Positions 10,471-43,719 of a DNA stretch of 64,000 nt are shown here, one piece after another. The stretch comes from a virus, in IMG/VR virus record IMGVR_UViG_3300032293_002041, positions 62,001-126,000 of that record; one strand, given 5' to 3'. How positions within the stretch are numbered: position 1 is the first letter of the stretch; every line of letters starts with the position of its first letter. Below the pieces are notes generated by a model. The model searched no databases, was not told where the DNA came from, and worked only from the letters and a program-made list of their open reading frames with translations. The translations under genes were made by a program, and so were the position numbers.

Positions 10471-10503
10471 AAACATATAATCTATTTTTAATTGGAGCTA
10501 AAA

Positions 10504-10836
10504 ATGGTCAAACCCGGCTATAGAACAAGTGAATTTTGGTTCACAGTAGTTAGCTTTATATTTAGCGGTTTATATCTAGTGGGAATTATTGGAGAAAATT
10601 CTCAAAAAGAAGATCTTATCCAAGAAACTACCAGAGGACTAGAAGCTACAATTCTTGTTATCGGACAATTAACGGTATTATTTAAATATATCAATGGAAG
10701 AACAGATCTGAAAAAGACTTGGTGGAATACAGCAACTCCAGAAGAAAGAAAAGAAGCAAATAAAAAGAACGATAAACCAGTAACAGTAAGAAAAAAGAGA
10801 AAAACAAATGGAAAACCAAAACCTACCAGTAAATGA
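10504..10836 (+). CDS. Holin-like small membrane protein
   Basis: 110 residues from ATG 10504 (GGAGCTAAAA before it; the in-frame TTG at 10492 overlaps the ribosome site). It has the pattern YRTSEFWFTVVSFIFSGLYLVGI followed by a second hydrophobic stretch (EATILVIGQLTVLFKYI) and a very basic tail (KKNDKPVTVRKKRKTNGKPK). Two membrane helices with a basic C-terminus is the usual class II holin layout, and the 'TSEFW' start is frequent in such phage proteins. Lysis function is inferred. No endolysin is recognised next to it, though the papain-like proteins follow. Confidence 0.55.
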   Translation: MVKPGYRTSEFWFTVVSFIFSGLYLVGIIGENSQKEDLIQETTRGLEATILVIGQLTVLFKYINGRTDLKKTWWNTATPEERKEANKKNDKPVTVRKKRKTNGKPKPTSK

Positions 10837-11233
10837 TCTTGGGAATTTAATAGTCAAAGCCAAAGAAATACTTAAAAATGCAAAAGCAGTAGCAATGCCA
10901 CAAGCATGGAACATCTTGCAATTAGCTACAGCTGAAGTTATTCAAACTGTAGAAAATAATAATCCCTCTCTTAAAGGGGTTGACAAAAAAACACTAGCTA
11001 TGGGTATGATCTCTAAGTTTTATGATCAAGTATTTACAATAATAAATTTTCCATTTGTGCCACAAGTTTTCCAGCCTATTATACAGAAGTATGTGAAACA
11101 GATTCTCATGCTTTTGGTTAGTGCCACTATTGATGCTTTAGTTACCACTTTTAGAAATAGTGGAATTTTTGTTGATCCTAGTTACAAAGTTGATCCTACC
11201 CTAGATAATAATCCAAAAGTTTCAGACAAATAA
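10808..11233 (+). CDS. Protein of unknown function with amphipathic helices
   Basis: 141 residues, starting 29 nt inside the previous gene. Predominantly helical, with AKEILKNAKAVAMPQAWNIL and a hydrophobic segment QPIIQKYVKQILMLLVSATIDALV that could associate with membranes. No cysteines and no known motif. Position in a run of membrane-linked small genes (10504-12148) suggests a shared membrane or virion role. Confidence 0.55.
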   Translation: MENQNLPVNDLGNLIVKAKEILKNAKAVAMPQAWNILQLATAEVIQTVENNNPSLKGVDKKTLAMGMISKFYDQVFTIINFPFVPQVFQPIIQKYVKQILMLLVSATIDALVTTFRNSGIFVDPSYKVDPTLDNNPKVSDK

Positions 11234-11243
11234 GGAAAATAAA

Positions 11244-11660
11244 ATGAATTTTACAGAGAGCTTCCAAGAATTTAGCAGTCGTTTGAGCACAACGGATTTG
11301 GCTCTTTATGCTGGTGCTGGTATCATACTATGGGTATTGTTTAAGGATAAACTTAGCCCTGTTCAGAGTTTATTGATGTCTCTTATGAATAAAGCGAAAG
11401 GTTTGACTAGAGAAAGCACTGGTACGCTTCCAATGGTTGATGTTCCAGCTGTTGTTCCAGCTGTTGATCTAGTTGTTTTACCAAAAGCTGTTAGCGTTAG
11501 CGATAAAGATGATATATTCTTTAAGCTGGTTGTGTCGTGGAAACAAACTCGTGACCTAGCAGAAAAGAGCGGTTGTGTTGAAGCTATTAAGGTTGCTGAT
11601 CAGATGTTTCCATTTCTAAGTCCCAATGTATGTGCTAAAAAAGAGGATAAAGTGATATGA
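11244..11660 (+). CDS. Membrane-anchored protein of unknown function
   Basis: 138 residues with AAGGAAAAT before ATG. A probable membrane helix spans about residues 18-33 (LALYAGAGIILWVLF), followed by a low-complexity Val/Pro/Ala stretch (MVDVPAVVPAVDLVVLPKAV) and a C-terminal helical domain (FFKLVVSWKQTRDLAEKSGC). No family is recognised. It overlaps the following membrane-anchored gene by 4 nt. Confidence 0.58.
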   Translation: MNFTESFQEFSSRLSTTDLALYAGAGIILWVLFKDKLSPVQSLLMSLMNKAKGLTRESTGTLPMVDVPAVVPAVDLVVLPKAVSVSDKDDIFFKLVVSWKQTRDLAEKSGCVEAIKVADQMFPFLSPNVCAKKEDKVI

Positions 11661-12148
11661 AAAATAATATCTTATTAGTAGTAGCTGGATTATTAGTTTT
11701 GATTGGATTAATAGGATTTGATTTTGGTAAACTTAATGTTGTACCAAATAGACCTAACTCTATTGATGTATTAGAACTACCAGAACCAACAGACGAAGCT
11801 ATTAAAAAAGAAGCTGACGATGTTGTTGCAGTACTAAAAGAGTCTGAAGCAAAAAGTGACGCTAAGAGATTACGAGACCTGTATCTTGATTTAGCAAAAC
11901 TAGTTGAGCTTGATGGTGAAGATGAAGTAATTAAAAGTACAGAAGAAATTCGTCAAGCAAATAGTTTGGCCGGTGTTATGCTCAGACTAGATATTAAGGG
12001 TAAATATCCTAATTTAGCTAAAGAAGCTAAAGAAGTGGTAGTAGCTGCTATTGGAGACGATCAAATTCCTTTATCAAAAGAGCTAAGAACTAAGGCTGTA
12101 GAAGGTCTTAATGCTTTAGCCTGGGCTTTTAACATAGGATCAAAATAA
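11657..12148 (+). CDS. Signal-anchor protein of unknown function
   Basis: 163 residues. The N-terminus (KNNILLVVAGLLVLIGLIGF) is a clear signal anchor or uncleaved signal. The rest is soluble, acidic and helical (EADDVVAVLKESEAKSDAKR, LYLDLAKLVELDGEDEVIK). It overlaps both neighbours (4 nt and 1 nt). The order anchor protein to papain-like protease suggests a joint function at the envelope or in the virion; not assigned. Confidence 0.58.
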   Translation: MKNNILLVVAGLLVLIGLIGFDFGKLNVVPNRPNSIDVLELPEPTDEAIKKEADDVVAVLKESEAKSDAKRLRDLYLDLAKLVELDGEDEVIKSTEEIRQANSLAGVMLRLDIKGKYPNLAKEAKEVVVAAIGDDQIPLSKELRTKAVEGLNALAWAFNIGSK

Positions 12149-13071
12149 TGAGTAGATTTTCTCCTAAAGAATTATACGATAATTATCGCAAAGGATTTAG
12201 TGGATGCATCTGGGAAGAGCATGTATTCAATCATCTGATGGAAACTTCTAAGTATCCACTATTTGGTGCTGCTAGTAAAAGAATTAGTGGCAGTGGTAAA
12301 GGAAAACTGTCAACACCATATAAGAGTGTGTTAAAGTTTGATAAGCATCCTTATAATGAAAGACAAACTACCGGGGATTGTGTTAGTCATGGAACACGAA
12401 ATGCTTGTGATGTAACCCGAGCCGTAGAAATAGATGTGCACAATGAGAGAGAAGATTGGATAGCAAAAGGTGCTACAGAAGCTATCTATGGATACAGAGG
12501 ATTCAGCGGACAAGGTATGAGTTGTGCCAGAGCAGCTGAATTTGTTAGTAAGGTTGGCGGTCTTGTGGTTAGAAAGAATTATGGGTTTGTGGACTTTAGT
12601 AAATACAATGGTAATCTAGGTGCTGGCTGGGGAGGTCGAGGACTTCCAGACAAAGTATTAGATCTAGCTAATGACCACCAAATTAAGACTGCTTCATTAA
12701 TACGAACAGTAGAAGAAGCTCGTGATGCTCTTGCTAATGGTTATGGATTAGCAGTATGTTCTAATTATGGATTTAGCAATACTAGAGATAAAAAGGGATT
12801 TGCTAGAACATCTGGTAATTGGGCTCATTGCATGGCTTGGATAGCTTGCGACGATACTGGTGGTGAGCCAGCATTCTTAGTACAAAATAGCTGGGGTAAA
12901 TGGAATGACGGAGGACATCCAGAATGGGGTCCAATCCCAGATGGTTCTTTTCTTATTCATGCTGATGTAGCTGCTGGAATGTTATCTGCTAATGGTTCGT
13001 ATGCCTTTAGTGGCTTCGATGGCTTTCCATTACAAAAACTACCAAGCTATGGATTTGAAGACTATCTATAA
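12148..13071 (+). CDS. Papain-like cysteine protease (peptidase C1 fold), intact catalytic residues
   Basis: 307 residues with the papain order of active-site residues: QTTGDCVSHG (oxyanion Gln73, nucleophile Cys78), NWAHCMAW (His227) and LVQNSWGKWNDGG (Asn247 in the family's NSWG block). A C-terminal GSFLIHAD matches the family's closing strand. There is no signal peptide and no long propeptide (about 70 residues precede the Cys). It may cleave virion precursors, host proteins or peptide cross-links; no substrate is indicated. A paralogue lacking the Cys lies at 14336. Start overlaps the previous gene by 1 nt (TAATG). Confidence 0.82.
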   Translation: MSRFSPKELYDNYRKGFSGCIWEEHVFNHLMETSKYPLFGAASKRISGSGKGKLSTPYKSVLKFDKHPYNERQTTGDCVSHGTRNACDVTRAVEIDVHNEREDWIAKGATEAIYGYRGFSGQGMSCARAAEFVSKVGGLVVRKNYGFVDFSKYNGNLGAGWGGRGLPDKVLDLANDHQIKTASLIRTVEEARDALANGYGLAVCSNYGFSNTRDKKGFARTSGNWAHCMAWIACDDTGGEPAFLVQNSWGKWNDGGHPEWGPIPDGSFLIHADVAAGMLSANGSYAFSGFDGFPLQKLPSYGFEDYL

Positions 13072-13105
13072 GATAATTTAATCAAAGATAATCAGGCATG
13101 AGGAA

Positions 13106-13121
13106 TTGGTGTATTAATATA
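13106..13121 (+). promoter_or_regulatory. TTGGTGTATTAATATA motif, candidate phage promoter
   Basis: In the 79-nt gap before the 13151 gene, 30 nt from its start. It shares AATTGGTGTATTA exactly with the element at 10452 and is followed by TAATATAATACC, which could also serve as a -10. Promoter function is inferred. Confidence 0.4.
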
Positions 13122-13150
13122 ATACCTATCCTTTTACAGAGATTATTTCT

Positions 13151-13348
13151 ATGAGATTAATAGATAGAATAGCTCTAAATAGAGCAATCCAAATGGCTTT
13201 AAATTTTATCTTAGCTATTGTTAAGATGTTCGATAAAAGCACTCCAGAAGATAAGCCAGATGGTCCCGTTAAACCAAAACCATCGCCTAAACGCAGACCT
13301 TTAAAAGATCTGATAGATAATGTTGTCCCATGGAGAGAACAAAAATGA
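13151..13348 (+). CDS. Small basic protein of unknown function
   Basis: 65 residues: an amphipathic or membrane-touching helix (NRAIQMALNFILAIVKMF) followed by a Pro/Lys-rich tail (KPDGPVKPKPSPKRRPLKD). First gene after the candidate promoter at 13106. It overlaps the next gene start by 4 nt. Too short for a family call. Confidence 0.5.
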   Translation: MRLIDRIALNRAIQMALNFILAIVKMFDKSTPEDKPDGPVKPKPSPKRRPLKDLIDNVVPWREQK

Positions 13349-13689
13349 ATAAATTATTTGTTGGTTTATTCTGTATGGGTTTGTTATTCACTCAGTCATC
13401 CTACTATGGCTCTACAACAGCCCCTGTAACCCTTGCTGGAGGAATTATTAAAGCTAAACACACTCAGGAAGCTACACAAAAATATAAAAGAAAAGATTGC
13501 CCAGTTTGTAAAGGCAAAGGCTGGTATATGAGTGGTGATGGTATATTAAAAATTGATTGCACATACTGTGAACCAGATAAAAGCTCGATATCTGTTGGAC
13601 CAATAACTTCTATCAATCCAAAACCTACAACAGAAAGCCCAAACTGCACAAGCGGTCAATGTAAACCATCTATTATAATTAGGAGATAA
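13345..13689 (+). CDS. Exported protein with DnaJ-type cysteine motif
   Basis: 114 residues from ATG 13345 (GGAGAGAAC precedes it). The N-terminus is a signal peptide (NKLFVGLFCMGLLFTQSS). The mature part has CPVCKGKGWY and, 20 residues on, CTYCEPD, a CxxCxGxG pair like half of a DnaJ zinc domain, then a Thr/Pro-rich tail with two more cysteines. It may bind zinc or form disulfides in the periplasm. No family is recognised. Confidence 0.58.
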   Translation: MNKLFVGLFCMGLLFTQSSYYGSTTAPVTLAGGIIKAKHTQEATQKYKRKDCPVCKGKGWYMSGDGILKIDCTYCEPDKSSISVGPITSINPKPTTESPNCTSGQCKPSIIIRR

Positions 13690-13691
13690 TC

Positions 13692-14090
13692 ATGGCAGAC
13701 AACGAAAAGTTAAAAGCTATTGCTATTAAAGTCCTAGAAAAATCTAATGTTCCCAAAGAAGATAATTATGGTTTTGCAATAGTGACTGTGTTGATGATTA
13801 TTAGTATAATATTAACTTGTATAAGAATATTGCAAGAATGTAATAAGAATAAATTATCGACTTCCTCAACAGAGTCTGATAAGTATAATCTATATGGAGA
13901 GCAATTAAAAACATTCAGCACAAAGCGTGGATGGTTTACCAAAATGAGAATTAAGAAAATCTTAAGAAGAGAGATGACCAGAGAAGACTACGAAAAATAT
14001 TCTTTTGCTATATTATCAGCTTTGCTAGATACAGGAGAAGTTCTCACGGATGAGGAGGTTATTACTTTAGTGGAGGCAGCCAATGTTTAA
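13692..14090 (+). CDS. Single-span membrane protein of unknown function
   Basis: 132 residues, with AGGAGATAATC as ribosome site. One membrane helix at about residues 27-45 (GFAIVTVLMIISIILTCIRI), then a cytoplasmic basic helical domain (TKMRIKKILRREMTREDYEK) and an acidic end (GEVLTDEEVITLVEAANV). It overlaps the GlsB-like gene by 8 nt, so the two are likely co-translated. Function unknown. Confidence 0.58.
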   Translation: MADNEKLKAIAIKVLEKSNVPKEDNYGFAIVTVLMIISIILTCIRILQECNKNKLSTSSTESDKYNLYGEQLKTFSTKRGWFTKMRIKKILRREMTREDYEKYSFAILSALLDTGEVLTDEEVITLVEAANV

Positions 14091-14334
14091 TATTTTAGTA
14101 TGGTGTGTTTATGGCATATTTGTTGGCAGTATTGCTAAGAGTTTAGTTCCAGGCGAAGAAAATTTTGGATTCATCAAGACAGTTGCTTTAGGTGTAGCTG
14201 GTTCTTATATGGGTGGAGCATTACTTTATATGATTGGTCAGTATAGCACAGTAAGTCCAGCTGGTATATTTTCTGGGGTTGTTGGAGCTGTTATATCCTT
14301 GGTGTTGTACAATAAACTAGCGACATCAAAATGA
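14083..14334 (+). CDS. GlsB/YeaQ/YmgE-family small membrane protein
   Basis: 83 residues with three hydrophobic segments and the family pattern VGSIAKSLVPGEENFGFIKT then GVAGSYMGGALLY and a final GVVGAVISLVLYNKL. Bacterial members are inner-membrane stress-associated proteins, once linked by name to transglycosylases; the biochemical role is unclear. A phage copy between two papain-like genes is unusual. GAGGCAGCC precedes ATG. Confidence 0.72.
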   Translation: MFNILVWCVYGIFVGSIAKSLVPGEENFGFIKTVALGVAGSYMGGALLYMIGQYSTVSPAGIFSGVVGAVISLVLYNKLATSK

Positions 14335-14335
14335 C

Positions 14336-15883
14336 ATGCTTACCCCAAGACAACTCTATTTATCCTATTCGTTAAATCCATGTATTTTAGGCTCCGAATC
14401 TGGAGGAGTTGGATTAGGAACTCCGTATAGTCTACCAAGATTAATCAAATTTTTAAAACATCTAAAATATCCATGTATAGAATCTACTCCAAATATTGAA
14501 AATATAAGAGATACTGGAAAACAAAGGATCGGCATACCATATAAATTTTTATGTCGTGTGGATGCTGAGGCTTTTTGTGAAATTCAGCCAACGATTAGTA
14601 GTGGTTCTTCTCATGCTGTTAGAAATTCTGTTGATATAACACGAGCATGTGATCTTGAAGTATCAAATAATTATTCTTTATGGCAAAGCAGAACAGCCAC
14701 AGAATATATCCAGCATTTTGGAGGCAACTCATTAGTTGACTGCTTGATGACTTTAGGACCGGATTTAGTTTCCGATGAAACTGCTCAATCCAGAGCTACT
14801 GGTTGCGGTATAATGACTTGCTTACCAAATACACAATATGGAGCTGCTGGGGCATTACATTCTTGTACTAAATTAATGGGTGAGTTAACTGCTAAGTGTC
14901 GTAGTTGTAAAACCTGTAATAGTGATCCACCAGATCCACTTGATCCATGTTGTAATCCTGGTAATTGCACAGAGTATACTAATAAGTGTTGTGGAGGAAT
15001 AATAACAGATAGAGATGATTTTTCATTCTGGGTACCATCTGACGATAATTATTTTAGTGGTAATCAATTAGATGGATTTGTTGGTAAAATTCTTAAACAT
15101 ATTGGTATTCTAAAGAGAAAAAGCTATGGAGGATATGGTAATTTTATAGATAATAGTGGGCCTAATTTCTATGGATGTAGAGACGATGTTTTTTTAAAGT
15201 ATTTTCAAAGCATTAATGGATATAATTATACTGATGATACTATCATACCGCAAACAACCCCTCCAGCCACTAGAATAGATAGATGCAGATCCATCTGCAT
15301 GATTAACTATACTGATATGAATAGAAATATTGGCATGATCAAAGATTTAATTTATAATGGTTATGGTATCGTATTAATGACTAATGTTGGTTTCCCAGAT
15401 TTTCGTGATTCTACTGGATTAAGTTATCCAGATAAAATTTGGTATCACTCATATTCTATCATAGGATACGATGATACTAAACTACAATATCCTGAATGCG
15501 TTTATTTACTATCTAATAGTTGGGGTGAATGGAACAGCGGAGGAGAGCCATTCTGGGGACCAATACCCAAAGGAAGTTTTTTGGTTACTGAAAGCCATTT
15601 ACGATCCATGATATCTTTTAATCAATCGCCCAGCTACAAAGGCTGCAAAGCAAGATATTGTCCTCCACCATGTACGAATCCCAGTGAATATGCTGCTTGT
15701 AGCGAAGACTCTAGCTGCGTACCATTTGAATGTACAGACAGACAAAGAGCATTCGGATTAGTTTTTGCATTATCTACTACAGAAGGTTTTACAAAGAGAA
15801 CTCTTAACTATAAACAATTTTTACCAATAAATAAACTAAGATCATTAAATCAACCATCAGAACTATTTTTTAAGAGCTATTAA
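14336..15883 (+). CDS. Papain-fold paralogue lacking the catalytic cysteine, with Cys-rich insert
   Basis: 515 residues, clearly related to the 12148 protein. SSGSSHAVRNSVDITRA aligns with GDCVSHGTRNACDVTRA, IWYHSYSIIGYDD with NWAHCMAWIACDD, and LLSNSWGEWNSGG with LVQNSWGKWNDGG. His371 and Asn394 remain, but the nucleophile position is Gly90. An insert at about residues 157-220 is very Cys-rich (CRSCKTC, DPCCNPGNC, NKCCGG), and cysteines recur near the end (CPPPC, CSEDSSC). It is probably a pseudoprotease acting as binding or structural partner, perhaps of the active paralogue. A serine next to the lost Cys is an alternative nucleophile. Confidence 0.78.
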   Translation: MLTPRQLYLSYSLNPCILGSESGGVGLGTPYSLPRLIKFLKHLKYPCIESTPNIENIRDTGKQRIGIPYKFLCRVDAEAFCEIQPTISSGSSHAVRNSVDITRACDLEVSNNYSLWQSRTATEYIQHFGGNSLVDCLMTLGPDLVSDETAQSRATGCGIMTCLPNTQYGAAGALHSCTKLMGELTAKCRSCKTCNSDPPDPLDPCCNPGNCTEYTNKCCGGIITDRDDFSFWVPSDDNYFSGNQLDGFVGKILKHIGILKRKSYGGYGNFIDNSGPNFYGCRDDVFLKYFQSINGYNYTDDTIIPQTTPPATRIDRCRSICMINYTDMNRNIGMIKDLIYNGYGIVLMTNVGFPDFRDSTGLSYPDKIWYHSYSIIGYDDTKLQYPECVYLLSNSWGEWNSGGEPFWGPIPKGSFLVTESHLRSMISFNQSPSYKGCKARYCPPPCTNPSEYAACSEDSSCVPFECTDRQRAFGLVFALSTTEGFTKRTLNYKQFLPINKLRSLNQPSELFFKSY

Positions 15884-15885
15884 TT

Positions 15886-18798
15886 ATGGCTATATCTAAA
15901 TGGTGTGACATAAATTCATGGTTTAAAAATGATAATTTTTCAATACCTGCAAATAAAATTCCTATCAATGAGATTGATGATATAATTATAGAAGACAATG
16001 ATTATTTATTTAATGTTCTAGATAACTCATGTTATAGCCGTATTCCTTCTTTAGTTTGTAATAATTTATATGTCATCCCTGGTTTTCTTGATAATGTAGG
16101 AAATGATATAGATGTTATATTTTCTTGTCAAAAACTAATAGCCTCAAATGTTGTAATAAATTCTGGTATTATTTGTATAGATTGGGATAACAATATTTGC
16201 GAGTGGACTGTCAAATCATTCAGTGGATTCAATAAGTTTGTTAAATTATATTGTACATCAGAAGAAAACTTCTGGCTATCAAATAGTATATCTAGAGAAA
16301 TATATCTAAATTGTCCTCAATACATTTCTTTAAATGAGTGTACCTTCAACAAAGGACGTATACAAACAGAAAATGGTAAAATAAGTGGTACATCATTAAA
16401 TAATATAAATTTAATAGGCATTTATGATATAGTAAGTAGCGAGCTGATTAGTTGTACTGGCAATGGAGAATTTAAATTTTTAAATAATTCTAAAAATTCA
16501 TCAACTATATACGGAGATACATTATTTTTAGAAAGTAAGAATGATTCTAAAAGTATCATATATGGACCTAGTATTTTTTCTGGAATAAATAGCAGTATAA
16601 ATAGTGGTATTATTGTAGGTGATTGTACTTTTTTTAATTCACAAAATTTTGGTACAATATCGGGAAATGCAATTTTTACTAGTGGATCTATAAATAGCGG
16701 CGTTGTTACAAATGATGCTATTTTTTATTCTGGTACTATTAATTATGGAAATATTTTTGGAGATGCGATTTTTGAATATAGTAATAATTATGGTATGGTA
16801 TCTGGAAACGCTGTTTTAAATACAGGAAATAATTATGGTAAACTACTAGGTGGTTCTACATATATGTCATCTGGCTTGAATACCAAAGATGGTTTTATTA
16901 GCGGACTTCAAATTCAACTAATTAATTCTTCAAACGAAGGACAAATTAAATGTCCACTTGCTTCTACAGGAGCAGAGAGTTCTACTTGTTCTTTAATTGA
17001 ATCAGATAATCAAAATATTTTAGTTGCAAATACTATCAATACAAAGCGTATAATTACAACAGGCTACCCCAAACCATTCAATGGTCTATCGGGCACAATT
17101 ACTTGTGAGTCTATATCCATTGGAAGCGGATATTTTAATGGAGGAGATATAAGTTCTTTAGACTATACTTTTATGTCAACTTCTTCCAATGACGGTACGA
17201 TTGGTCCCGGAGTAGTTGTACCAATTTCAGAAACCACAAATAAACCAGATATTAGTAGGAGTTATCAGTCTGGAACTGTAGTATTTAATTCTGGTTGTCA
17301 TAACAATGGAATCATACTATCTCCATGTATATCAACTTTTAATAACGCTATTAATTTAGGAAATATTTCTGGCGGATGCATTTTTAATAAATTAAGCTAT
17401 AATTTATCAAGTATAAATGCTAATAATTATGATATTATTTATTTTAACGATATAAGCATTAATAAAGGTACTATATTATCTAGTTCTAGTCAAACAATTT
17501 TTAATGATAATTCATTAAATGATGGAACTATATACTCTTTTGTCTATTTTAATAATAGATCAAAAAATTCAGAGACAGGAAATATAAGATATGCTTCTTT
17601 TAAAGACTTATCACAAAACTCTGGCAGAATTGAAAATGGTTATTTTTTTAATGATGCAATTAATAATGGATTCATAACTAACAGTGGTGATTTCTTTGAC
17701 TCATCACAAAACCTATATCCAGCAAAGATTAGCGGTGTGGTTAATTTTTATAATGCTAGCATTAATTCTGGAGATATTAACTTAGCAAATGCTAAATTCT
17801 ACGATAACTCTAAAAACTATGACTATATATATGGTAACAGATCTAAATTATTTTTCGACAACTCACAGAATTTTGGATCTGTAAATAACGCTAAATTTTA
17901 TGACACGTCAGTAAATGTAAGGTTTCTGTTAGGAATTACTGAATTTTATAACAATAGTTCTAATAAGGGCTCATCTAGCTTTGATGATGATACATATTTC
18001 TATGATGACAGCACTAATAATGGACTAATAGATAAAGCTTTTTTCTTTGACCGAAGTACTAATCAGCATAATATAATAACATATAGTGGTCTTGATGGAT
18101 TAATTATATTTAATAATAGTTCACAAAATTTACAACCAATACAAAATAGAACAATTATTTTTAATGATACCAGCTCGAATCAAAGTACACTAAAAATTAT
18201 TCTAACACCTCAATATTCTCCTAGCGGTAATACTATTAACTTTAATACTCAGGCTGAGAATAGAAGCGAAATTATAGAATATAATTCAATTATTTTTTCT
18301 AGTGGAGCAGAGAATTACGGGGATATATCCGTTACTGGCACTGGCTGTATGCTAGTTTTTCAAGACGGTTCTATTAATTTAGGTTATATTAATATAAATA
18401 ATGATGTTCAATTTCAAAATGCAATAAATTCTGGTAGCATAAGAAATCAAGCACATTTTGAAGATAGCACAAATTTTGGAAAAGTTCCATATGCTACATT
18501 TAATAATAGTATTAATTCTGGTATAATTAACTATGGTATATTTATGCAAAATTCTACAAATTTAACTAATATAGCGAGTGGTGTATTTAATAATTCTAAT
18601 AATTCTGGCTATATTTTTCAAAACGGTATATTTAGCACTTATTCATCTAATCGAGGAAATGTAGGAAATAATGCAGATTTTACAGATTATTCAGCAAATT
18701 ATGGTATTATAAATGGAAATGGATCTTTTTTCACTTACTCATGCAATTATGGAACAGTACTAGGAGAGCTTCTGACAGATTCGTCGTGTACAGGTTAA
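15886..18798 (+). CDS. Long Asn/Gly-rich solenoid repeat protein, putative virion adhesin
   Basis: 970 residues starting 2 nt after the papain paralogue. An N-terminal domain of about 190 residues (CDINSWFKNDNFS...) is followed by some 40 imperfect repeats of about 17-20 residues with the theme 'N-x-G-x-I-x-G-x-A-x-F-x-x-S', for example NFGTISGNAIFTSG and NYGNIFGDAIFEYS. Asn and Gly at fixed places are typical of right-handed beta-solenoids with stacked side-chain ladders, as in tail spikes and adhesins. No signal peptide. It is likely a fibre or spike, or its tip. No enzymatic residues are apparent. Confidence 0.68.
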   Translation: MAISKWCDINSWFKNDNFSIPANKIPINEIDDIIIEDNDYLFNVLDNSCYSRIPSLVCNNLYVIPGFLDNVGNDIDVIFSCQKLIASNVVINSGIICIDWDNNICEWTVKSFSGFNKFVKLYCTSEENFWLSNSISREIYLNCPQYISLNECTFNKGRIQTENGKISGTSLNNINLIGIYDIVSSELISCTGNGEFKFLNNSKNSSTIYGDTLFLESKNDSKSIIYGPSIFSGINSSINSGIIVGDCTFFNSQNFGTISGNAIFTSGSINSGVVTNDAIFYSGTINYGNIFGDAIFEYSNNYGMVSGNAVLNTGNNYGKLLGGSTYMSSGLNTKDGFISGLQIQLINSSNEGQIKCPLASTGAESSTCSLIESDNQNILVANTINTKRIITTGYPKPFNGLSGTITCESISIGSGYFNGGDISSLDYTFMSTSSNDGTIGPGVVVPISETTNKPDISRSYQSGTVVFNSGCHNNGIILSPCISTFNNAINLGNISGGCIFNKLSYNLSSINANNYDIIYFNDISINKGTILSSSSQTIFNDNSLNDGTIYSFVYFNNRSKNSETGNIRYASFKDLSQNSGRIENGYFFNDAINNGFITNSGDFFDSSQNLYPAKISGVVNFYNASINSGDINLANAKFYDNSKNYDYIYGNRSKLFFDNSQNFGSVNNAKFYDTSVNVRFLLGITEFYNNSSNKGSSSFDDDTYFYDDSTNNGLIDKAFFFDRSTNQHNIITYSGLDGLIIFNNSSQNLQPIQNRTIIFNDTSSNQSTLKIILTPQYSPSGNTINFNTQAENRSEIIEYNSIIFSSGAENYGDISVTGTGCMLVFQDGSINLGYININNDVQFQNAINSGSIRNQAHFEDSTNFGKVPYATFNNSINSGIINYGIFMQNSTNLTNIASGVFNNSNNSGYIFQNGIFSTYSSNRGNVGNNADFTDYSANYGIINGNGSFFTYSCNYGTVLGELLTDSSCTG
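16560..18760 (+). repeat. Degenerate coding repeats (about 51-60 bp per unit)
   Basis: Within the solenoid gene, the nucleotide sequence shows recurrent AATAATTATGG/AATTCTGG-type cores at about 50-60 base intervals, encoding N-x-G turns. Units differ at many bases, so this is an old protein repeat and not a recent tandem duplication. It is the source of the strong AT bias here. Confidence 0.6.
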
Positions 18799-32983: not shown

Positions 32984-33400
32984 ATGTCTGATCAATATTT
33001 ATCAAATTATTCTAACGGTAAAACTGTATCCGCAGCACAATTTATAACAGAAATTATTTGCGAAAGGAAAGCCCAGTCTACCAAGCAAGATTTACATTAT
33101 AGATTTTGGCTAGAAAAAAAATGGTCTGCTTTCTATAGGAACCAAATAGGATCAGCACATAAGTTGCTTAAAAAATACTCTTCTAAAGCTATCATAAGAG
33201 CATTGAATACTGATCAAGGAAGAAAAATCTATTCTTTGCGAGCACCACATCTTCCAGCTATTATAGAGAGTCAAGAACAAATTATCCAACAAGAAAATAC
33301 AGATCTTACTCTTCATATAGAGAGAAAAGAAAACATTTCTTTTGGTATTAAAAATCAATCAAAGAATATTATTTCTAAACTGAAGGACTTAGATCAATGA
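32984..33400 (+). CDS. Basic protein of unknown function next to recA
   Basis: 138 residues. KTVSAAQFITEIICERKAQS, LHYRFWLEKKWSAFYRNQI and AHKLLKKYSSKAIIRALNTD are basic and helical; this composition suits nucleic-acid binding. It overlaps the recombinase start by 4 nt, so it may be a recombination mediator, as small genes beside phage recombinases often are. That role is inferred from position only. Confidence 0.57.
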   Translation: MSDQYLSNYSNGKTVSAAQFITEIICERKAQSTKQDLHYRFWLEKKWSAFYRNQIGSAHKLLKKYSSKAIIRALNTDQGRKIYSLRAPHLPAIIESQEQIIQQENTDLTLHIERKENISFGIKNQSKNIISKLKDLDQ

Positions 33401-35445
33401 GTTTAAAAGAAGATGTTATTAAGGATTTTGGTAATGAAATTATGCTAACAGCCAGCGCTGTTGTAGATAAAAAATTAATTACCATTCCAGTGAGTCCATC
33501 ATTAGACATTATATTGAATGGTGGTGTACCAGAAGGAAGCTTTATGATTTTAACTGGTCAACCAAAATGCGGCAAAGAGATGCCATTAAATAGCTTAATA
33601 TATACTCCCGATGGACCAAGAACAATGGGAGAAATGAAGGTTGGAACAGTAGTCTGTACTCCGGATGGTAATACTGCAAAAGTTATTGGAGTATATCCAC
33701 AGGGAAAGAAGGATATTTATAAGGTCACATTTAATGATGGTTCTTCAGCAGAGTGTGGATTAGAACACAACTGGACTGTTGCCAAAAATAATCGCAAAAG
33801 TGACTATGTAACGATAACCCTAGAAGAGATTATGAGCGAGGGGCTGAGATATAATGATCGTTGGAAGTGGAAGATTCCGTTAACAAAACCAGTTTACTTT
33901 AAACAGCAGAAGAAACTTATTCTTGATCCATATATTTTGGGTTGCTTGATTGGTGATGGTGGACTAACACAAAAGACCCCTAGATTCACAACTTCTGATA
34001 CCTTTATAGCAAGCAAGTTTAGAACTTTCTGTAAAAAAAGAGGACTATCTTTTAGGCATATTGATAAGTACGATTATTCTATTAGTGGTAATGTAGAGTC
34101 AAGTGTTATGGTAAAGAATACTCTAACCAGAGATCTGAAGAAACTAGGATTAATGGGTTGCGGGTCTCATGCCAAATTTATACCAACCGCATATAAGTAT
34201 GCTTCTGTGGCCAATAGACTATCTTTGGTTCGTGGACTAATGGATACCGATGGATATAATAGCAAAGGTAAAAGGGCAGAATATTCAACGGTATCACCAA
34301 GATTAGCTTCTGATGTTAGAGAACTTTTAGAGGGGTTGGGTTACTCTGTTGTGTCAACATTAAGAAATACTAACTGTAATAATAAGAGTTTTCTTTCATA
34401 TAGACTCTGTATTCATGGTAATGACATTAATCAACTATTCAGTTTACCTAGGAAAAAGACCAAGCACAAAAGAATCAAACCTGACTTGTGTAGGACTATT
34501 ATTGATGTGCAAAAGGTTTCTCGCGAAGAAGCCCAGTGCATAGAGATAGACCATAAGGATGGACTTTATTTAACTGATCGTTTTATTGTTACTCATAATA
34601 CCACAACATCTCTAGATTTCGCAGCAACCGCACAAAGACCAGAATATGCTTATAAAGAACTCAAAGAAGGAAGAGAGGTCTATTATCTCAATATTGAGGG
34701 TAGACTTAAGAAACGAGACCTAGAAGGCATCCCAGGACTTAATCTAGATAGATTTCACATCATTGGCTCTCAACAAGGCAAGATATTACATGCGGAAGAA
34801 TATCTCCAGATCGGAGAAAGAATCATAAATGAAATACCGGGATGCGTTCTAATTATAGACTCCTACTCTGCATTATGCACGGAAACAGAAATCACATCAG
34901 ATATGAGTAAAATGCAAAGAGCAGACGGAGCTAAGTTATTAGCTAAATTTTGTAGGAAAGTGGCTAATGTTATTCCTGTAAATAGGAATATCGTGGTAGG
35001 CATTACTCATCTTATGGGGAACCCTGGCACTGGTCATGTTGAATGGAAAGAAAAGAGTGGTCAAGCTATTGCTTATCAAACTGATATCAAGCTCAGAGCA
35101 CAATTCCACAGAGCATGGAAAATTGGAACATCAGAAGATGGTCAGCAGATTGGCCAGGAAATACAGTGGCAAGTTATTTGCTCTGCGTTGGGCGCTCCCG
35201 GCGGCACAATTACCAGCTACATTAGATATGGTCAGGGTATTGACAAGCAGATGGAACTATTAATGCTGGCAGCAGATATTGGATTGATACAAAAGGGTGG
35301 AGCTTGGTATACATTAACTTCAGTAGAAGATAAGCCTAAATTCCAAGGAACTGAAAAAGTCAGACAATATCTGGTTGACCATCCAGACGTTTATGAGAGC
35401 TTATTAGCACAAGTTAAAGAGACTATGGGCATTAAATGCAAATAA
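33397..35445 (+). CDS. recA: RecA-family recombinase interrupted by an intein
   Basis: The 682-residue precursor has exteins of 60 and 281 residues that join to a 341-residue RecA/UvsX-like ATPase. Extein 1 is SPSLDIILNGGVPEGSFMILTGQPKCGK; extein 2 restarts TTTSLDFAA, rebuilding Walker A as GQPKCGKTTTS. Further motifs are VYYLNIEGRL, GCVLIIDSYSALCT (Walker B) and GITHLMGNPG. It should bind ssDNA and promote strand exchange. The exact subfamily (RecA versus UvsX) is uncertain. The next gene (nuclease-like) starts 10 nt before the stop. Confidence 0.83.
   Translation: MSLKEDVIKDFGNEIMLTASAVVDKKLITIPVSPSLDIILNGGVPEGSFMILTGQPKCGKEMPLNSLIYTPDGPRTMGEMKVGTVVCTPDGNTAKVIGVYPQGKKDIYKVTFNDGSSAECGLEHNWTVAKNNRKSDYVTITLEEIMSEGLRYNDRWKWKIPLTKPVYFKQQKKLILDPYILGCLIGDGGLTQKTPRFTTSDTFIASKFRTFCKKRGLSFRHIDKYDYSISGNVESSVMVKNTLTRDLKKLGLMGCGSHAKFIPTAYKYASVANRLSLVRGLMDTDGYNSKGKRAEYSTVSPRLASDVRELLEGLGYSVVSTLRNTNCNNKSFLSYRLCIHGNDINQLFSLPRKKTKHKRIKPDLCRTIIDVQKVSREEAQCIEIDHKDGLYLTDRFIVTHNTTTSLDFAATAQRPEYAYKELKEGREVYYLNIEGRLKKRDLEGIPGLNLDRFHIIGSQQGKILHAEEYLQIGERIINEIPGCVLIIDSYSALCTETEITSDMSKMQRADGAKLLAKFCRKVANVIPVNRNIVVGITHLMGNPGTGHVEWKEKSGQAIAYQTDIKLRAQFHRAWKIGTSEDGQQIGQEIQWQVICSALGAPGGTITSYIRYGQGIDKQMELLMLAADIGLIQKGGAWYTLTSVEDKPKFQGTEKVRQYLVDHPDVYESLLAQVKETMGIKCK
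33577..34599 (+). mobile_element. Intein with LAGLIDADG endonuclease in the recombinase P-loop, class 3 features
   Basis: The insertion runs from Glu61 to Asn401 of the precursor, between Lys60 and Thr402 of Walker A. The N-terminal residue is Glu, not Cys/Ser/Thr. Block B is SSAECGLEHNWTV with His124 and Trp126, block F is AQCIEID with Cys381, and the end is IVTHN with Thr399. The Trp, Cys and Thr correspond to the WCT set that defines class 3 inteins, which splice without an N-terminal nucleophile. A homing endonuclease is present: ILGCLIGDGGL (about 180-190) and LVRGLMDTDGY (about 277-287). Splice sites are assigned by eye. Confidence 0.85.
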
Positions 35446-36734: not shown

Positions 36735-38189
36735 ATGATTTTGTGTGATTCAGCAGCAGAAAGAGCTGTTCTTTCCGGTATATGTAATTATGGAGAGGAT
36801 GCTTACTTGGATGTGGCAGATATTGTACAGGATTCTTCTTTTACAATTGACAGCAATTCTATTATTTTTAAGTGCTTAAAAGTTGTCTGCGAAAGAGAAC
36901 AAAAGCCCGATATTGACATAGCTACCATTTTTTCTGTAGCAGAAGAATTGGGATTTGGTCATATTTTAGCAAAAAAAGAAGAAGCCCAGCATTTAAGAGC
37001 AATTATTGATTTTCCTGTTGCTGTAGATAATGTAAGAAAATTTGCAGCTAAAATTAGAAAGCTTGAAATAGCTAGACTATTACGCAAGCAGCTTGAGTTA
37101 GCACAAGAGAAGATATTAGACGTTAATGGAACAGAACCGATAGGTTCGATTCTAGGTATAGCCGAAGAGACCATATTCAATTTTACGTCTCTTCTTAACG
37201 ACTCAGACAACAACCCCGTACCAATTGGCAACGATCTAGATGCATATATACATAATCTAGAACATAATAGGGTTGATCAGGTTGGTATACCCACAGGTTT
37301 TCCTGCTTATGATCATGCAATAGGTGGCGGTCTAAGAAAAGGAACCGTGAATGTTATCGGGGCTAGACCTAAAACTGGCAAAACATTACTATCAGATAAT
37401 ATAGGCAATAATATAGCTAAACTAGGGATTCCAGTTCTTAATATGGATACTGAGATGAATAAAGAAGACCATATCAATAGAATATTAGCTATGATGACAG
37501 AAATTGAAATCAATGCTATAGAGACTGGTAAGTTCGCAGAATCTCCAGATAAAAAGAATAAGCTAATAGCAGCAGCTACAGAACTGAAAAAGACCAAACT
37601 ATTTCATAAAAGTATTGCTGGTCAACCGTTTGAAGATCAGCTTGCAATCATGAGAAGGTGGGTACTAAAAGAAGTTGGTCTTAATGACGATGGCACAGCT
37701 AAGGAATGTGTTATTTTTTATGACTATCTTAAACTAATGGATAGTGCTGGCATGAGTCAGGATCTTAAAGAATATCAGGTATTAGGATTCATGATGACTT
37801 CTTTGCATAATTTTGCTACCAGATATAAGGTGCCTATCGTTGCATTCATACAGTTGAACAGAGATGGCATCACAAAAGAAAGTACAGATTCTGCCAGCGG
37901 ATCTGACCGTATTATATGGCTATGTAGCAACTTTAGTATTTTCAAACGAAAAACTCCAGAAGAGATAGCAGAAGATGGACCAGATAATGGTAATCGTAAA
38001 TTGGTCCCATTAATCAGTAGACACGGAGGAGGTTTGGATGACAATGATTATATTAATTGTCATATGAAGGGTTGGTGTGCGAAAATCACAGAAGGCAAGA
38101 CCAGACTTGAGGTACTTAACAATAAGGGTGGAACATCTGATGGCTTTATCGTCAACAATACAAATGAACAAGAAATCCCGTTCGAATAA
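36735..38189 (+). CDS. DnaB-like replicative helicase
   Basis: 484 residues. The N-terminal domain (AAERAVLSGICNYGEDAYLD, IIFKCLKVVCEREQKPDI) is of DnaB type. The C-terminal RecA-like motor has IPTGFPAYDHAIGGGLRKGTV, Walker A as GARPKTGKTLLSDN, LNMDTEMNKEDHINRILAMM, a Walker B-type CVIFYDYLKLM, and VPIVAFIQLNRDG. It should unwind DNA at the fork as a hexamer, with the primase encoded next. The primase gene starts 26 nt before its stop. Confidence 0.88.
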   Translation: MILCDSAAERAVLSGICNYGEDAYLDVADIVQDSSFTIDSNSIIFKCLKVVCEREQKPDIDIATIFSVAEELGFGHILAKKEEAQHLRAIIDFPVAVDNVRKFAAKIRKLEIARLLRKQLELAQEKILDVNGTEPIGSILGIAEETIFNFTSLLNDSDNNPVPIGNDLDAYIHNLEHNRVDQVGIPTGFPAYDHAIGGGLRKGTVNVIGARPKTGKTLLSDNIGNNIAKLGIPVLNMDTEMNKEDHINRILAMMTEIEINAIETGKFAESPDKKNKLIAAATELKKTKLFHKSIAGQPFEDQLAIMRRWVLKEVGLNDDGTAKECVIFYDYLKLMDSAGMSQDLKEYQVLGFMMTSLHNFATRYKVPIVAFIQLNRDGITKESTDSASGSDRIIWLCSNFSIFKRKTPEEIAEDGPDNGNRKLVPLISRHGGGLDDNDYINCHMKGWCAKITEGKTRLEVLNNKGGTSDGFIVNNTNEQEIPFE

Positions 38190-39321
38190 TGATCAGACCA
38201 AACTTAAAATAGTTTGCGATGATATTTGTGACAACATATATCCTCTGCTTGATGCTTTTGGCTTGGAATATAGATCCAATAACAAAATGATTTCTATGTC
38301 TTGCCCAATTCATGGTGGAGACAATATGTCTGCCATTAATCTATATCCAGAAGGAGATAGATACAGAGGAAACTGGAAGTGCAGGACTCATGGGTGCGAA
38401 CAGATATTTAAGTCTTCTGTTATAGGGTTCGTTAGAGGAATACTCTCGCATCAAAAGCATGGATGGGAAGAAGATGGAGATAAAACATGTAGCTTCAATG
38501 ATGCCTTGGAGTTTTGTCTCAAATTTATCAATAAAGACCTAAAGAATATTAAAGTCTCGAAAACGGAAAGAGATAAAAAATCTTTTACCAGTACTGTTAG
38601 CTACTTATCCAGAGATGCTCAGGTATTGGATAAGACAGTTCAACTACCAACAAGAGACCAAGTAAGAAAAAATTTAAAAATGTCTCCAGACTATTATATT
38701 CAAAGGGGCTATTCTATAGAGATATTGGATAAGTACGATGTAGGCTTATGCGATAATGCCACTAAAGAAATGTATAATAGGATTGTGGTACCTATTTATA
38801 ATAATGATTATACTCATATGATTGCGTGTAGCGGAAGAAGCATATCTGATAAGTGTAGTCATTGTTCATCTTATCATAACGCAACTGAAAAATGCCCATC
38901 AGACGAAAAAAAGTGGCTTTATCCAAAATGGAAACACAGCGCTAATTTTAAAAGCCAAAATTCTTTGTACAATTTCTGGTTTGCGAAAGAGCACATTATG
39001 AAAAGCAATCAAGTAATTATTGTTGAGAGCCCCGGTAATGTTTGGAGACTAGAAGAAAACGGCATCCATAACAGTGTGGCTATATTCGGATCGTCTTTGA
39101 GCGATAGACAAAAAATTCTACTTGATTCGTCTGGAGCTATGACTATCGTAATCTTAACAGATAATGATGAAGCTGGCAGAAAAGCGGCTGAACAAATTAA
39201 GTCAAAGTGTCAAAATACCTATCGAGTTTTTATTCCATCAATCAGTAAGCCCGATGTGGGAGAGATGACATCAGAAGAAATTAATACTGAAATAAAACCA
39301 TATCTAGAAAGTATAGTATGA
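38164..39321 (+). CDS. DnaG-like primase with TOPRIM domain
   Basis: 385 residues from ATG 38164, inside the helicase end; the longer frame from 38077 would overlap the helicase coding region further. A zinc-binding region (SCPIHGGDNMSA, KCRTHGCEQI) lies near the N-terminus. The TOPRIM core follows with IIVESPGNVWRLEENG (catalytic Glu), AIFGSSLSD and VILTDNDEAGRKAAEQI (DxD). A middle CSHCSSYHNATEKC is an additional likely metal site. It makes RNA primers for the phage fork; helicase and primase are adjacent and probably interact. Confidence 0.86.
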   Translation: MNKKSRSNNDQTKLKIVCDDICDNIYPLLDAFGLEYRSNNKMISMSCPIHGGDNMSAINLYPEGDRYRGNWKCRTHGCEQIFKSSVIGFVRGILSHQKHGWEEDGDKTCSFNDALEFCLKFINKDLKNIKVSKTERDKKSFTSTVSYLSRDAQVLDKTVQLPTRDQVRKNLKMSPDYYIQRGYSIEILDKYDVGLCDNATKEMYNRIVVPIYNNDYTHMIACSGRSISDKCSHCSSYHNATEKCPSDEKKWLYPKWKHSANFKSQNSLYNFWFAKEHIMKSNQVIIVESPGNVWRLEENGIHNSVAIFGSSLSDRQKILLDSSGAMTIVILTDNDEAGRKAAEQIKSKCQNTYRVFIPSISKPDVGEMTSEEINTEIKPYLESIV

Positions 39322-39908: not shown

Positions 39909-40945
39909 TAACATATCTAAGAAGTAGTTCTTATGGCACTCACTCAATGTGTCCACAGCAATATTTTTTTGAATATATTCTTGGCTTAAGATCTCCGTCT
40001 AATAAAAAAGCTGACAAGGGGACTGTGGTGCATAAAGTTCTAGAGATATTGGCATATGTCAAACTTAATCAACAAAATAAAATAAATATTTTTGAAGACG
40101 ATGTTGTTGGTTCTGTGAATATTAATAATTACAGCTTAAATACGATCATAGAAAAAGTATATAAATACTATACCTCAAGATTCACCCACCACGAATGGGA
40201 CATAAAGGATTATAAAGATTGTCACGGATGGGTTTACAAAGCCCTAGAATACAATGGTGGCATGTTTGACCCTAGGAATAGGGACATAGTGCAGCCAGAG
40301 CAGCATTTTGACATAGAGATTAAAAAACCATGGTCTTCTTATAAATACGATACTAAAGATGGATTACTAGAAGGTAATTTAGCTATCAAGGGCACAATAG
40401 ATCTTATCACCAGGATTAATGATAAAACCTTAGAAGTAATAGACTGGAAGACTGGAAGAAGACTAGATTGGGCGACAGGAGAAGAAAAAACCCAAGAAAA
40501 GCTACAAAATGATCCTCAACTAAGAATATATCATTATGCTATACAACATTTATATCCAGAAATTGAGCATGTTATGATCTCTATTGATTTTATTAATGAC
40601 GGTGGGGCATTTACTATTTGTTTTGACAAAAGCGATCTTTTCAAAACAGAAATCATGCTTAAGAATAAATTTGAAACTATTAAGAATACACAAAAACCTC
40701 AACTTAATAAAACCTGGAAATGTACTAAGCTATGTCATTTTGGGAAAACAACATTTGAGAATACTTCCATAGCTCCAATAATAGAATACAGAGATAATCA
40801 GATAACACCAAAAGATAAGTGTATGACTAAGTGCGAGCAAGTAAAGCATGATATAGACACCAAAGGCACAGAAGTCGTGATTGACGAATATCAAACTCCG
40901 GGTTATAGTATTGGACACTACAAGGCACCCGGAAGCACCGCATGA
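39902..40945 (+). CDS. RecB/Cas4-like PD-(D/E)XK nuclease, probable non-ATG start
   Basis: About 347 residues. The catalytic core is AIKGTIDLITR and LEVIDWKTGRR (Asp, Asp-x-Lys), with GTVVHKVLEI (motif with His) and DPQLRIYHYAI (QxxxY) as in RecB-type nucleases. The first in-frame ATG (39947) would cut off ITYLRSSSYGTHS-MCPQQYFFEYILGL, the usual N-terminal strand and helix of this family. AGAGGGG at 39888-39894 instead suits a start near ATT 39902 or the ATA 39905. Late cysteines (CTKLCHF, CMTKCEQ) may form an iron-sulfur or zinc site. It overlaps the polymerase gene by 4 nt. Confidence 0.78.
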   Translation: MIITYLRSSSYGTHSMCPQQYFFEYILGLRSPSNKKADKGTVVHKVLEILAYVKLNQQNKINIFEDDVVGSVNINNYSLNTIIEKVYKYYTSRFTHHEWDIKDYKDCHGWVYKALEYNGGMFDPRNRDIVQPEQHFDIEIKKPWSSYKYDTKDGLLEGNLAIKGTIDLITRINDKTLEVIDWKTGRRLDWATGEEKTQEKLQNDPQLRIYHYAIQHLYPEIEHVMISIDFINDGGAFTICFDKSDLFKTEIMLKNKFETIKNTQKPQLNKTWKCTKLCHFGKTTFENTSIAPIIEYRDNQITPKDKCMTKCEQVKHDIDTKGTEVVIDEYQTPGYSIGHYKAPGSTA

Positions 40946-42816
40946 AAAATTATACTCCGCTCCATTGTCATTCGATGTATAGCTTATTGGATGGATTGTC
41001 TCAGCCAAAAACAATGGCCGAAAGATGTCAAGAAATTGGAGCATCTTCTTGCGCTCTAACAGATCATGGTAACATAGCCGGAACTGTTAAGTTTTATACT
41101 GAAATGAAAAAGCATGGTATCAAACCCATATTGGGTTGCGAGCTATATATTTGCAACGATAATCCATCAATACAAAGCAAAGAGAATAAAGATCTTAGTC
41201 ATTTTGTAATATTGGCAAAAAACTTTGAAGGATGGAAAAGCTTAATCAGAATAACTTCAGAGTCTAATAGGCCAGACTTCTATTATCACAAGCCGAGACT
41301 CAGCCTATCAACCCTAGCGCAGTTCTGCAACAACAATATTATTGGTTTTTGCGGACATGCTGGTTCAACTATAGCTGACAAGATTATGCTAGGAGAAAGT
41401 CTAAATCCAGATTGGAAAGAAATTGGCATTCAACAAATCGGCCTATATAGAGAGATATTTGGTAGAGACAATTTTTTTCTTGAAGCCCAATTAATGGATT
41501 CAGAAAACTCACCAATTCAGAAGATATTGACCGATGCGATGAGAGAGCTTGCAAAGCATACCTCTACCAAGATTATAGCCACACCAGACGCTCATTATTG
41601 CCGCAAGGAGGACGCAATTGATCAAAGAGTACTGCTGTGCAATAATTTAAAAACAACCTTCCCAGAGATCAGCAGGAAGATCACGAATGATGAGGAAGTT
41701 CCTCTTGGCTGCTTTTTTACATCTGACAACTTTCACATATTATCTCAGGAAGAAATACGATTATTTCACACAGAGGAAGAAATCGAGAACACCAATTTTG
41801 TGGCTAATTTATGTGAAGAATATAATATTTTGGATAAGCCACAATTACCACCATTTCCATGTCCAAACAATCTGGACGATGCTGAGTATCTGAGAGAATT
41901 ATGTAGAAACGGATGGAGAGAGAAAATTGCCAATGATATCCCAAAAGAAGACCATGGTAAGTATGTTGATAGGATTAAATATGAGCTTGATGTTTTACAG
42001 GGAGCTGGGCTATCAAGCTACTTTTTGATTGTGCAAGATATTGTGAATTATGTTAGGTCTAATAATTGGCTCCCAGGACCAGGAAGAGGAAGTGCTGCTG
42101 GTTGCTTAGTCTCTTATTTAATCGGTATTACTAGTATAGACCCGATTAAGTATAATCTTCTTTTCGATAGATTTTACAATGCTGGTCGTAATAGTAAAGA
42201 CCATATCTCAATGCCAGACATTGATGTGGACGTACCAATTAATAAAAGAGAAAATGTTATCGAATATATTAAACAGTGCTACGGAAAAGACAAGGTGTCT
42301 CAAATGATAACATTCAATACGATTAAAGGTAGAGGAGCTATCAAGGATGTCTTAAGAGTATATGGTAATATATCTTTTGATGAGATGAATAAAATTACTA
42401 AAAGTATTCCAGATGAGTCCAAAATTGCCGACGATCTTCAAGAAATGAAAGAAGAAACCGGAGAAGCATCAATTATTAGATGGGCTTTAGAAAATCAGCC
42501 AGATAAGCTTAGGGAGTGGTGTTTTATCGATGAAAAGAACGAATTACAAGGACCACTTGCAAAAAGATTTGAGCAGGCTATAAGATTGGAAGGCACCAAG
42601 TCTAATCAGTCCAAACATGCCGCTGGTATAGCCATTAGTGCCAATCCATTAAATATATCATGCCCAATGGTTTATGATTCAAAAAACGAACAGATGATAG
42701 CTGGCATGGAAATGCAAGATTTAGAATCGTTAGGTATAATTAAGTTTGATATTTTAGGTGTAGCGATGTTAGATAAAATTATGACTATTCGAGACATTTT
42801 AAGAACAGGAGAATAA
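40942..42816 (+). CDS. dnaE: DNA polymerase III alpha subunit, N-terminal part (split DnaE)
   Basis: 624 residues covering PHP and palm. PHP motifs are LHCHSMYSLLDG and ALTDHGNIAG. The palm has GPGRGSAAGCLVSYLIGIT, MPDIDVDVP (Asp428, Asp430) and GIIKFDILGVAML (Asp603), equal to E. coli D401, D403 and D555. All three catalytic aspartates are therefore in this piece. It then stops at DILRTGE, where a normal DnaE continues into the fingers. The fingers and the rest are encoded at 43712. No intein fragment is found at the end, so assembly must be non-covalent. Confidence 0.9.
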   Translation: MKNYTPLHCHSMYSLLDGLSQPKTMAERCQEIGASSCALTDHGNIAGTVKFYTEMKKHGIKPILGCELYICNDNPSIQSKENKDLSHFVILAKNFEGWKSLIRITSESNRPDFYYHKPRLSLSTLAQFCNNNIIGFCGHAGSTIADKIMLGESLNPDWKEIGIQQIGLYREIFGRDNFFLEAQLMDSENSPIQKILTDAMRELAKHTSTKIIATPDAHYCRKEDAIDQRVLLCNNLKTTFPEISRKITNDEEVPLGCFFTSDNFHILSQEEIRLFHTEEEIENTNFVANLCEEYNILDKPQLPPFPCPNNLDDAEYLRELCRNGWREKIANDIPKEDHGKYVDRIKYELDVLQGAGLSSYFLIVQDIVNYVRSNNWLPGPGRGSAAGCLVSYLIGITSIDPIKYNLLFDRFYNAGRNSKDHISMPDIDVDVPINKRENVIEYIKQCYGKDKVSQMITFNTIKGRGAIKDVLRVYGNISFDEMNKITKSIPDESKIADDLQEMKEETGEASIIRWALENQPDKLREWCFIDEKNELQGPLAKRFEQAIRLEGTKSNQSKHAAGIAISANPLNISCPMVYDSKNEQMIAGMEMQDLESLGIIKFDILGVAMLDKIMTIRDILRTGE

Positions 42817-43020: not shown

Positions 43021-43719
43021 ATGATTAACTATAATAAAATTTGCGTTTTCGATTTTGAGACAGATGGTTCTGATCCTCGTGTTTGTAGTCCAGTGCAAAT
43101 AGCATCTGTCATTATTGATCCAATTAAGCTTGAATTAGTTCCAAATTCTGAATTTAATATTTTCTTTAAACCAGATGTATTAGCTAAAGATGAAAATTAT
43201 GAATATACAACAGATATTCTGGACTTTCATGCCAAAGTCAAGGGATGTTCCAAGGACGATATTCTAAAAGAATGGAAAGCTTATCCTTCACAAGAACAAT
43301 CTTGGAAAATGTTTACAAATTATTTAGAAATGTATCATAGTAGGTCTTCTAAAAAGAGTCAATTTAGTGCTCCTATAGCTGCCGGTTATAATATTAATCG
43401 CTTTGACCTACCGATAGTAGATAGACTCAGTAATAAATATGGCAACGTCAACAAGGAATCAAAGAGTGATATCTTTTATCCTAGGGATGTGGTCGATATC
43501 ATGAATCTGATTTTCTATTGGTTTGAAAATAATGGTGACTTAAAAAGTTATAGTCTAGATTCATTAAGAGACTACTTTGGAATCTCTAAAGCAGGAGCAC
43601 ACGACGCATTGAAGGATGTGAAGGACTGTGCCGATATTTTAATTAGATTTCTTAGATTACATCGTAATTTAAGCAATAAGATCAAATTCAAGGACTCTTT
43701 CTCTACTAGCAATGTCTAA
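43021..43719 (+). CDS. DnaQ-like 3'-5' exonuclease (DEDDh)
   Basis: 232 residues. ICVFDFETDGSDPR gives motif ExoI (Asp, Glu), AGYNINRFDLPIV motif ExoII (Asp), and AHDALKDVKDCADI motif ExoIII with the DEDDh His and Asp. It is likely the proofreading subunit of the replicase. Its gene lies exactly between the two DnaE parts and overlaps the second by 8 nt, as expected for a protein translated and assembled with them. Confidence 0.9.
   Translation: MINYNKICVFDFETDGSDPRVCSPVQIASVIIDPIKLELVPNSEFNIFFKPDVLAKDENYEYTTDILDFHAKVKGCSKDDILKEWKAYPSQEQSWKMFTNYLEMYHSRSSKKSQFSAPIAAGYNINRFDLPIVDRLSNKYGNVNKESKSDIFYPRDVVDIMNLIFYWFENNGDLKSYSLDSLRDYFGISKAGAHDALKDVKDCADILIRFLRLHRNLSNKIKFKDSFSTSNV

Follow-up and report, generated by a model that had tools for sequence, protein, structure and literature searches.

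The 64,000-nucleotide stretch analyzed here in its entirety (the window), comprising positions 62001–126000 of the 228,972-base uncultivated virus record G000:C1 (IMG/VR IMGVR_UViG_3300032293_002041), codes for two proteins of predicted papain fold: P1, an apparently competent papain-like protease (12148–13071, + strand; 307 residues), and P2, its predicted pseudoprotease paralogue (14336–15883, + strand; 515 residues). We propose, with a probability of about one half, that P1 is a papain-like endopeptidase of the host envelope or of lysis and that P2 is a non-catalytic duplicate, which was reused in a virion fiber or adhesin module together with a solenoid protein. Coordinates are those of the window unless a record or locus is named.

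As judged from their sequences, P1 and P2 are beyond doubt true paralogues: BLASTP aligns them over two segments (38% over 115 residues, E 7e-24; 34% over 89 residues, E 8e-12), and the comparison of the two family profiles with hhalign spans 281 columns with a probability of 100% (E 4.8e-45), a value that rules out chance similarity. A first-pass annotation, made from the letters of this DNA, had already called these two reading frames paralogous and had set Cys78, His227 and Asn247 of P1 opposite Gly90, His371 and Asn394 of P2; both frames lie where it placed them, and the alignments bear it out on each of these points. In P1, Gln73, Cys78, His227 and Asn247 are invariant across 63 distinct close homologues, all of which also retain the N247-S-W-G250 motif around the catalytic Asn, and the same Gln, Cys, His and Asn are equally invariant in the aligned homologues from divergent clades at ~30% identity. 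P1 hence displays the triad order of the C1 peptidases, Cys-His-Asn, with an oxyanion-hole Gln. Its family comprises 194 relatives in IMG/VR and is spread over three divergent clades, labeled freshwater, marine and L117-clade (the first two being working names not taken from sample sources); a second clade at ~52% identity counts 158 stretches, a set that partly overlaps the 194, and a third lies at ~30%. P1 has evolved under purifying selection, with a ratio of nonsynonymous to synonymous substitution rates (dN/dS) of 0.01–0.09.

Direct sequence searches of Pfam, PHROGs and the PDB with P1 and P2 yielded no significant match, tblastn searches of 50,697 named phage genomes with four members of the P1 family and P2 were likewise negative, and no tested member of the P1 family matched PHROGs. 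P1 itself does not match the Pfam family PF00112; one divergent relative scores 18.0 bits (E 0.0033) against a cut-off of 20.7. The fold was approached with AlphaFold models of both proteins, whose low confidence, probably stemming from alignments that are too uniform or too shallow, restricts them to fold-level matching. The P1 model, with a predicted local distance difference test (pLDDT) score of 45.7, retrieves cathepsins and papains from the PDB with Foldseek (best E 3e-4, probability 0.99) and phage Peptidase C1A proteins from the viral structure library BFVD (best E 7e-5, probability 1.00); the top fold matches of the P2 model are also papain-fold proteases (best E 5e-3). Given the C1-type motifs and the fold match on the one hand, and the sub-threshold PF00112 scores on the other, P1 is best described as papain-like and formally outside PF00112. 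An independent sign that its activity matters comes from inteins in two relatives. In L094 (5394–6488), a 365-residue insert with a Pfam Intein_splicing match (E 2.9e-13) sits directly after the catalytic His (WAH/C...N/CMAW, the slashes marking its borders), and in L103 (3754–4770), a 339-residue insert with a LAGLIDADG match (E 5e-8) directly follows QNSWG. Inteins are known to prefer active sites, with a mean distance of 8.3 Å (PMC3359363); the P1 inserts, two distinct inteins each at its own active-site motif, match this preference and hint indirectly that P1 has to be functional.

The P2 family presents the opposite picture. Across 23 distinct homologues the catalytic Cys is absent without exception, being replaced by Gly (20), Ala (2) or Thr (1). 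We looked in these for a catalytic Cys elsewhere, which would have spoken against the first-pass annotation, and found none conserved: no alternative nucleophile is conserved at the site, the following residue varies between S, T and V, and the sole Cys by the active-site position, in L108, lies one residue before it. The His has further been replaced in 6/23 homologues (by N, Q or T) and the Asn in 9/23 (by L or C), with both sets of losses falling in the same sub-clade. P2 forms a single clade (Shimodaira–Hasegawa-like approximate likelihood ratio support of 100; stem of 2.07 changes per site, in a quick tree that carries a long-branch warning); hence, the loss of the Cys needs only one change. 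The dN/dS of 0.08–0.18 indicates that P2 is maintained and speaks against pseudogene decay. Taken by its sequence, P2 is thus a maintained pseudoenzyme, a peptidase homologue missing catalytic residues across its orthologues, next to a paralogue whose activity is itself read from sequence. It is a clear-cut example from nature of a catalytic Cys lost once, long ago, with the remainder of the triad then decaying step by step while purifying selection acted. The Cys-rich insert reported by the first-pass annotation is real: 11 Cys fall within residues 157–219, of which those at 177, 188, 194, 205, 206 and 218 are invariant in the 23 homologues. P2 proteins as a whole carry 20–30 Cys, with 12 invariant and three more present in 22/23, a conservation that suggests disulfides or metal binding.

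The closest genomic association of P2 is with the gene behind it. The latter begins 2 nt past the P2 stop codon, as originally noted, and codes for a 970-residue solenoid protein (15886–18798, + strand) with a weak Pentapeptide_3 match and 31 N/S-x-G-x-I/V/F motifs, as against 5.4 in shuffled sequences. Among 22 distinct genomes with P2, 21 have a long gene starting within ~20 nt or less of the P2 stop codon, L110 being the exception; its product is usually a repeat protein, and in 18 of the 21 genomes its start shows a similar W/L/F-C-D/N motif, read by eye. In contrast, the distance between P1 and P2 ranges from 1.2 to 4.3 kb across genomes, and the intervening genes vary, including glycosyltransferases, tail-fiber-like genes or GlsB. 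The close linkage to the next gene and the variable linkage to P1 make P2 read as one half of a P2–solenoid module.

Briefly, we envisage the following scenario. P1 would be a competent papain-like endopeptidase at the center of a conserved set of late genes acting on the host envelope; its role would most likely be in lysis or in breaching the envelope. A single old duplication of a P1-like gene might have given rise to P2, which would then have lost its nucleophile, gained disulfide-type cysteine inserts and been kept as a non-catalytic protein working with the repeat protein encoded directly downstream, the two most likely constituting a fiber or adhesin module of the virion. We infer protein cleavage by P1, the virion or envelope location of both proteins, their sites of action and their targets from the patterns reported here.

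The genes around P1, whose conservation was counted over 116 freshwater, 79 marine and 18 L117-clade loci, bear on the first part of this scenario. All those of the window lie on the + strand. The most widely conserved is a helical protein with a single transmembrane (TM) segment (11657–12148; TM window at residue 5), which ends at the P1 start codon and has homologues in 102/116 freshwater, 57/79 marine and 6/18 L117-clade loci. Ahead of it are genes for a membrane-associated protein (11244–11660; 105/116 freshwater, 5/79 marine), a small protein with no predicted TM segment (10808–11233; 102/116 freshwater) and a small one-TM protein that is holin-like by position and build only (10492–10836), comparable marine genes matching PHROG holins. 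Between P1 and P2 lie genes for a small basic protein with no significant family match (13151–13348; 74/116 freshwater), a putatively exported Cys-rich protein with a DnaJ-like CxxCxGxG...CxxC pattern (13330–13689; 102/116 freshwater), a single-TM protein (13692–14090; 104/116 freshwater, 29/79 marine) and a membrane protein resembling GlsB and transglycosylase-associated proteins (14083–14334; 98/116 freshwater). With regard to the earlier description of this interval, the GlsB-like assignment stands (PF04226, Transgly_assoc, 31.2 bits; cut-off 25.3), as does the second membrane protein, and the DnaJ-like motif is weak (PF00684 E 0.29, under the cut-off). In the marine relatives, P1 is immediately followed by an exported protein with a DnaJ-like Cys motif fused to a thioredoxin domain (e.g., L147:7039–7614), and 58-residue holin-like genes occur two to three genes downstream of P1 (weak PHROG holin match, E 1e-4). 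In the whole record, the Pfam models M23, SLT, NlpC/P60, Amidase_2, Amidase_3, CHAP, phage lysozyme and M15_4 find nothing above cut-off; an NLPC_P60 match inside a 902-residue tail-fiber-like gene (G000 192773–192973; E 0.003, below cut-off) and an M15 match inside a DNA polymerase gene were both taken as chance. The conserved membrane and redox neighbors, the marine holin-like genes and the negative result with these eight hydrolase models together favor P1 as an envelope-acting enzyme.

Several points weigh against this proposal: a wall enzyme from a family beyond the eight models could be present; the small genes adjoining P1 could have another purpose; the 10492–10836 product matches no holin profile; and both structure models are of low confidence. 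Moreover, no signal peptide or TM segment was seen in P1 or P2, so that acting on the envelope would require a holin or delivery by the virion. A virion protease processing head, tail or fiber proteins would dispense with the envelope altogether. Among phages, conserved peptidases often follow the type of virion, and their presumed role is the processing of virion proteins (PMC7824862); tail-fiber-like genes do occur near P1 (e.g., Mtd_N in L063). However, P1 lies outside the head gene cluster, where a 543-residue gene between portal-like and capsid-like genes (G000 199440–201071; not confirmed by any profile) reads like a prohead protease or scaffold, and the conserved neighbors of P1 are membrane and redox genes; we therefore hold a maturation role for P1 to be unlikely. 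Neither Pfam nor PHROGs bore out a reading of the 543-residue product as a protease of the XkdF type.

A more specific version of the envelope proposal concerns the host. The record carries a DUF1501 gene (E 9.5e-98; G000 38030–39139, or L216:30–1136), which also occurs in 7/31 related records, and this gene, along with planctomycete-style exported proteins, is presumably a link to Planctomycetota; these two features alone suggest such a host. The phages might then lyse their probably planctomycetal hosts by attacking a disulfide-linked protein sacculus, with P1 as a protease-type endolysin cutting wall protein, the exported thioredoxin- and DnaJ-like Cys proteins opening disulfides and P2 serving as a wall-binding adhesin of the virion with a solenoid fiber. 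We regard this version as speculative and quite unlikely as it stands; if lysis by a protease is true, the means by which phages lyse bacteria that have protein-rich walls would become testable. With respect to hosts, the P1 relatives L114, L115 and L116 are on contigs binned with Flavobacteriales or Lokiarchaeota metagenome-assembled genomes; their gene content is phage-like, and they are probably mis-binned virus contigs.

The first-pass annotation had proposed that P2 is the pseudoprotease partner of P1 in envelope or virion processing; such a partner could be a regulator, decoy or chaperone. That one paralogue is conserved and competent-looking and the other a conserved pseudoenzyme holds, as do the shared fold and ancestry on which the idea draws; that the two act together fares less well. 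In 31 records scanned whole, a chosen rather than random sample, P2 is present in 14 and never without P1, bar one record whose contig ends beside P2 and which is the only one where P1 was not found. Yet 17/31 have P1 without P2, six of these being records of 197–244 kb, and P2 was found in only one of the three P1 clades. The divergences of P1 and P2 correlate (rho 0.84), as shared phylogeny alone would have them do, and P2 changes faster than P1 in every one of 105 genome pairs, with a mean identity of 48% against 78%. Added to the variable spacing and the coupling to a different gene described above, this makes a dedicated partnership very unlikely. As for P1 being an anti-host protease degrading cytosolic host or defense proteins, the lack of a visible export signal would suit it, but a widespread, slow-evolving protein that is not patchy and resides in a fixed cassette with membrane genes renders it highly improbable.

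Elsewhere in the record, shortly upstream of the window, a subtilase has as its neighbor a trypsin-like protease (G000 57726–59410, or L217:726–2407) that seems to carry a signal peptide. Within the window, the Walker A loop of a RecA-like recombinase (33397–35445) holds an insert resembling an intein, and in relatives such as L115 the gene is present but lacks this insert; a DNA polymerase III alpha-like gene is divided into two reading frames with an exonuclease-like frame between them (40942–42816, 43021–43719 and 43712–45340); and a 2,716-residue protein (55128–63278) has 77 cysteines (2.8%), far above other large proteins on the same strand.

The analysis thus delineates a family of predicted phage proteases that is widespread but lacks annotation, occurs in hundreds of uncultured phages and lies in a conserved membrane and redox cassette; it invites comparison with known papain-fold systems. 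P1 shares with the papain family C1 (PF00112: papain, cathepsins) the Cys-His-Asn order, the Gln just before the Cys, the NSWG motif and the fold match; it differs in having no Pfam match and a Gln–Cys spacing of 5, that of papain being 6. Its best viral structure matches (E 7e-5) are the phage Peptidase C1A proteins A0A6J5QDM8 of an uncultured Caudovirales phage and A0A873WLH1 of Streptomyces phage Shady; however, identity to these is 14–22%, and the P1 family has no sequence match in the 50,697 phage genomes. To our knowledge, no inactive paralogue has been described for these proteins. NlpC/P60 and CHAP endolysins or tail peptidases of phages likewise have a papain-like fold and serve lysis or entry, and Lysin A of phage Indlulamithi figures among the viral structure matches of P1 (E 0.02), but P1 differs in its NSWG motifs of the C1 type and has no match to either family. 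For P2, the nearest parallels are menin, the Rad4 domain and OTULINL, inactive papain-fold proteins kept as scaffolds or binding proteins (PMC10318531). P2, by its sequence, would similarly combine a papain fold with a lack of catalytic activity; in contrast to these cellular proteins of other families, it is phage-encoded, Cys-rich and coupled at the gene level to a repeat protein.

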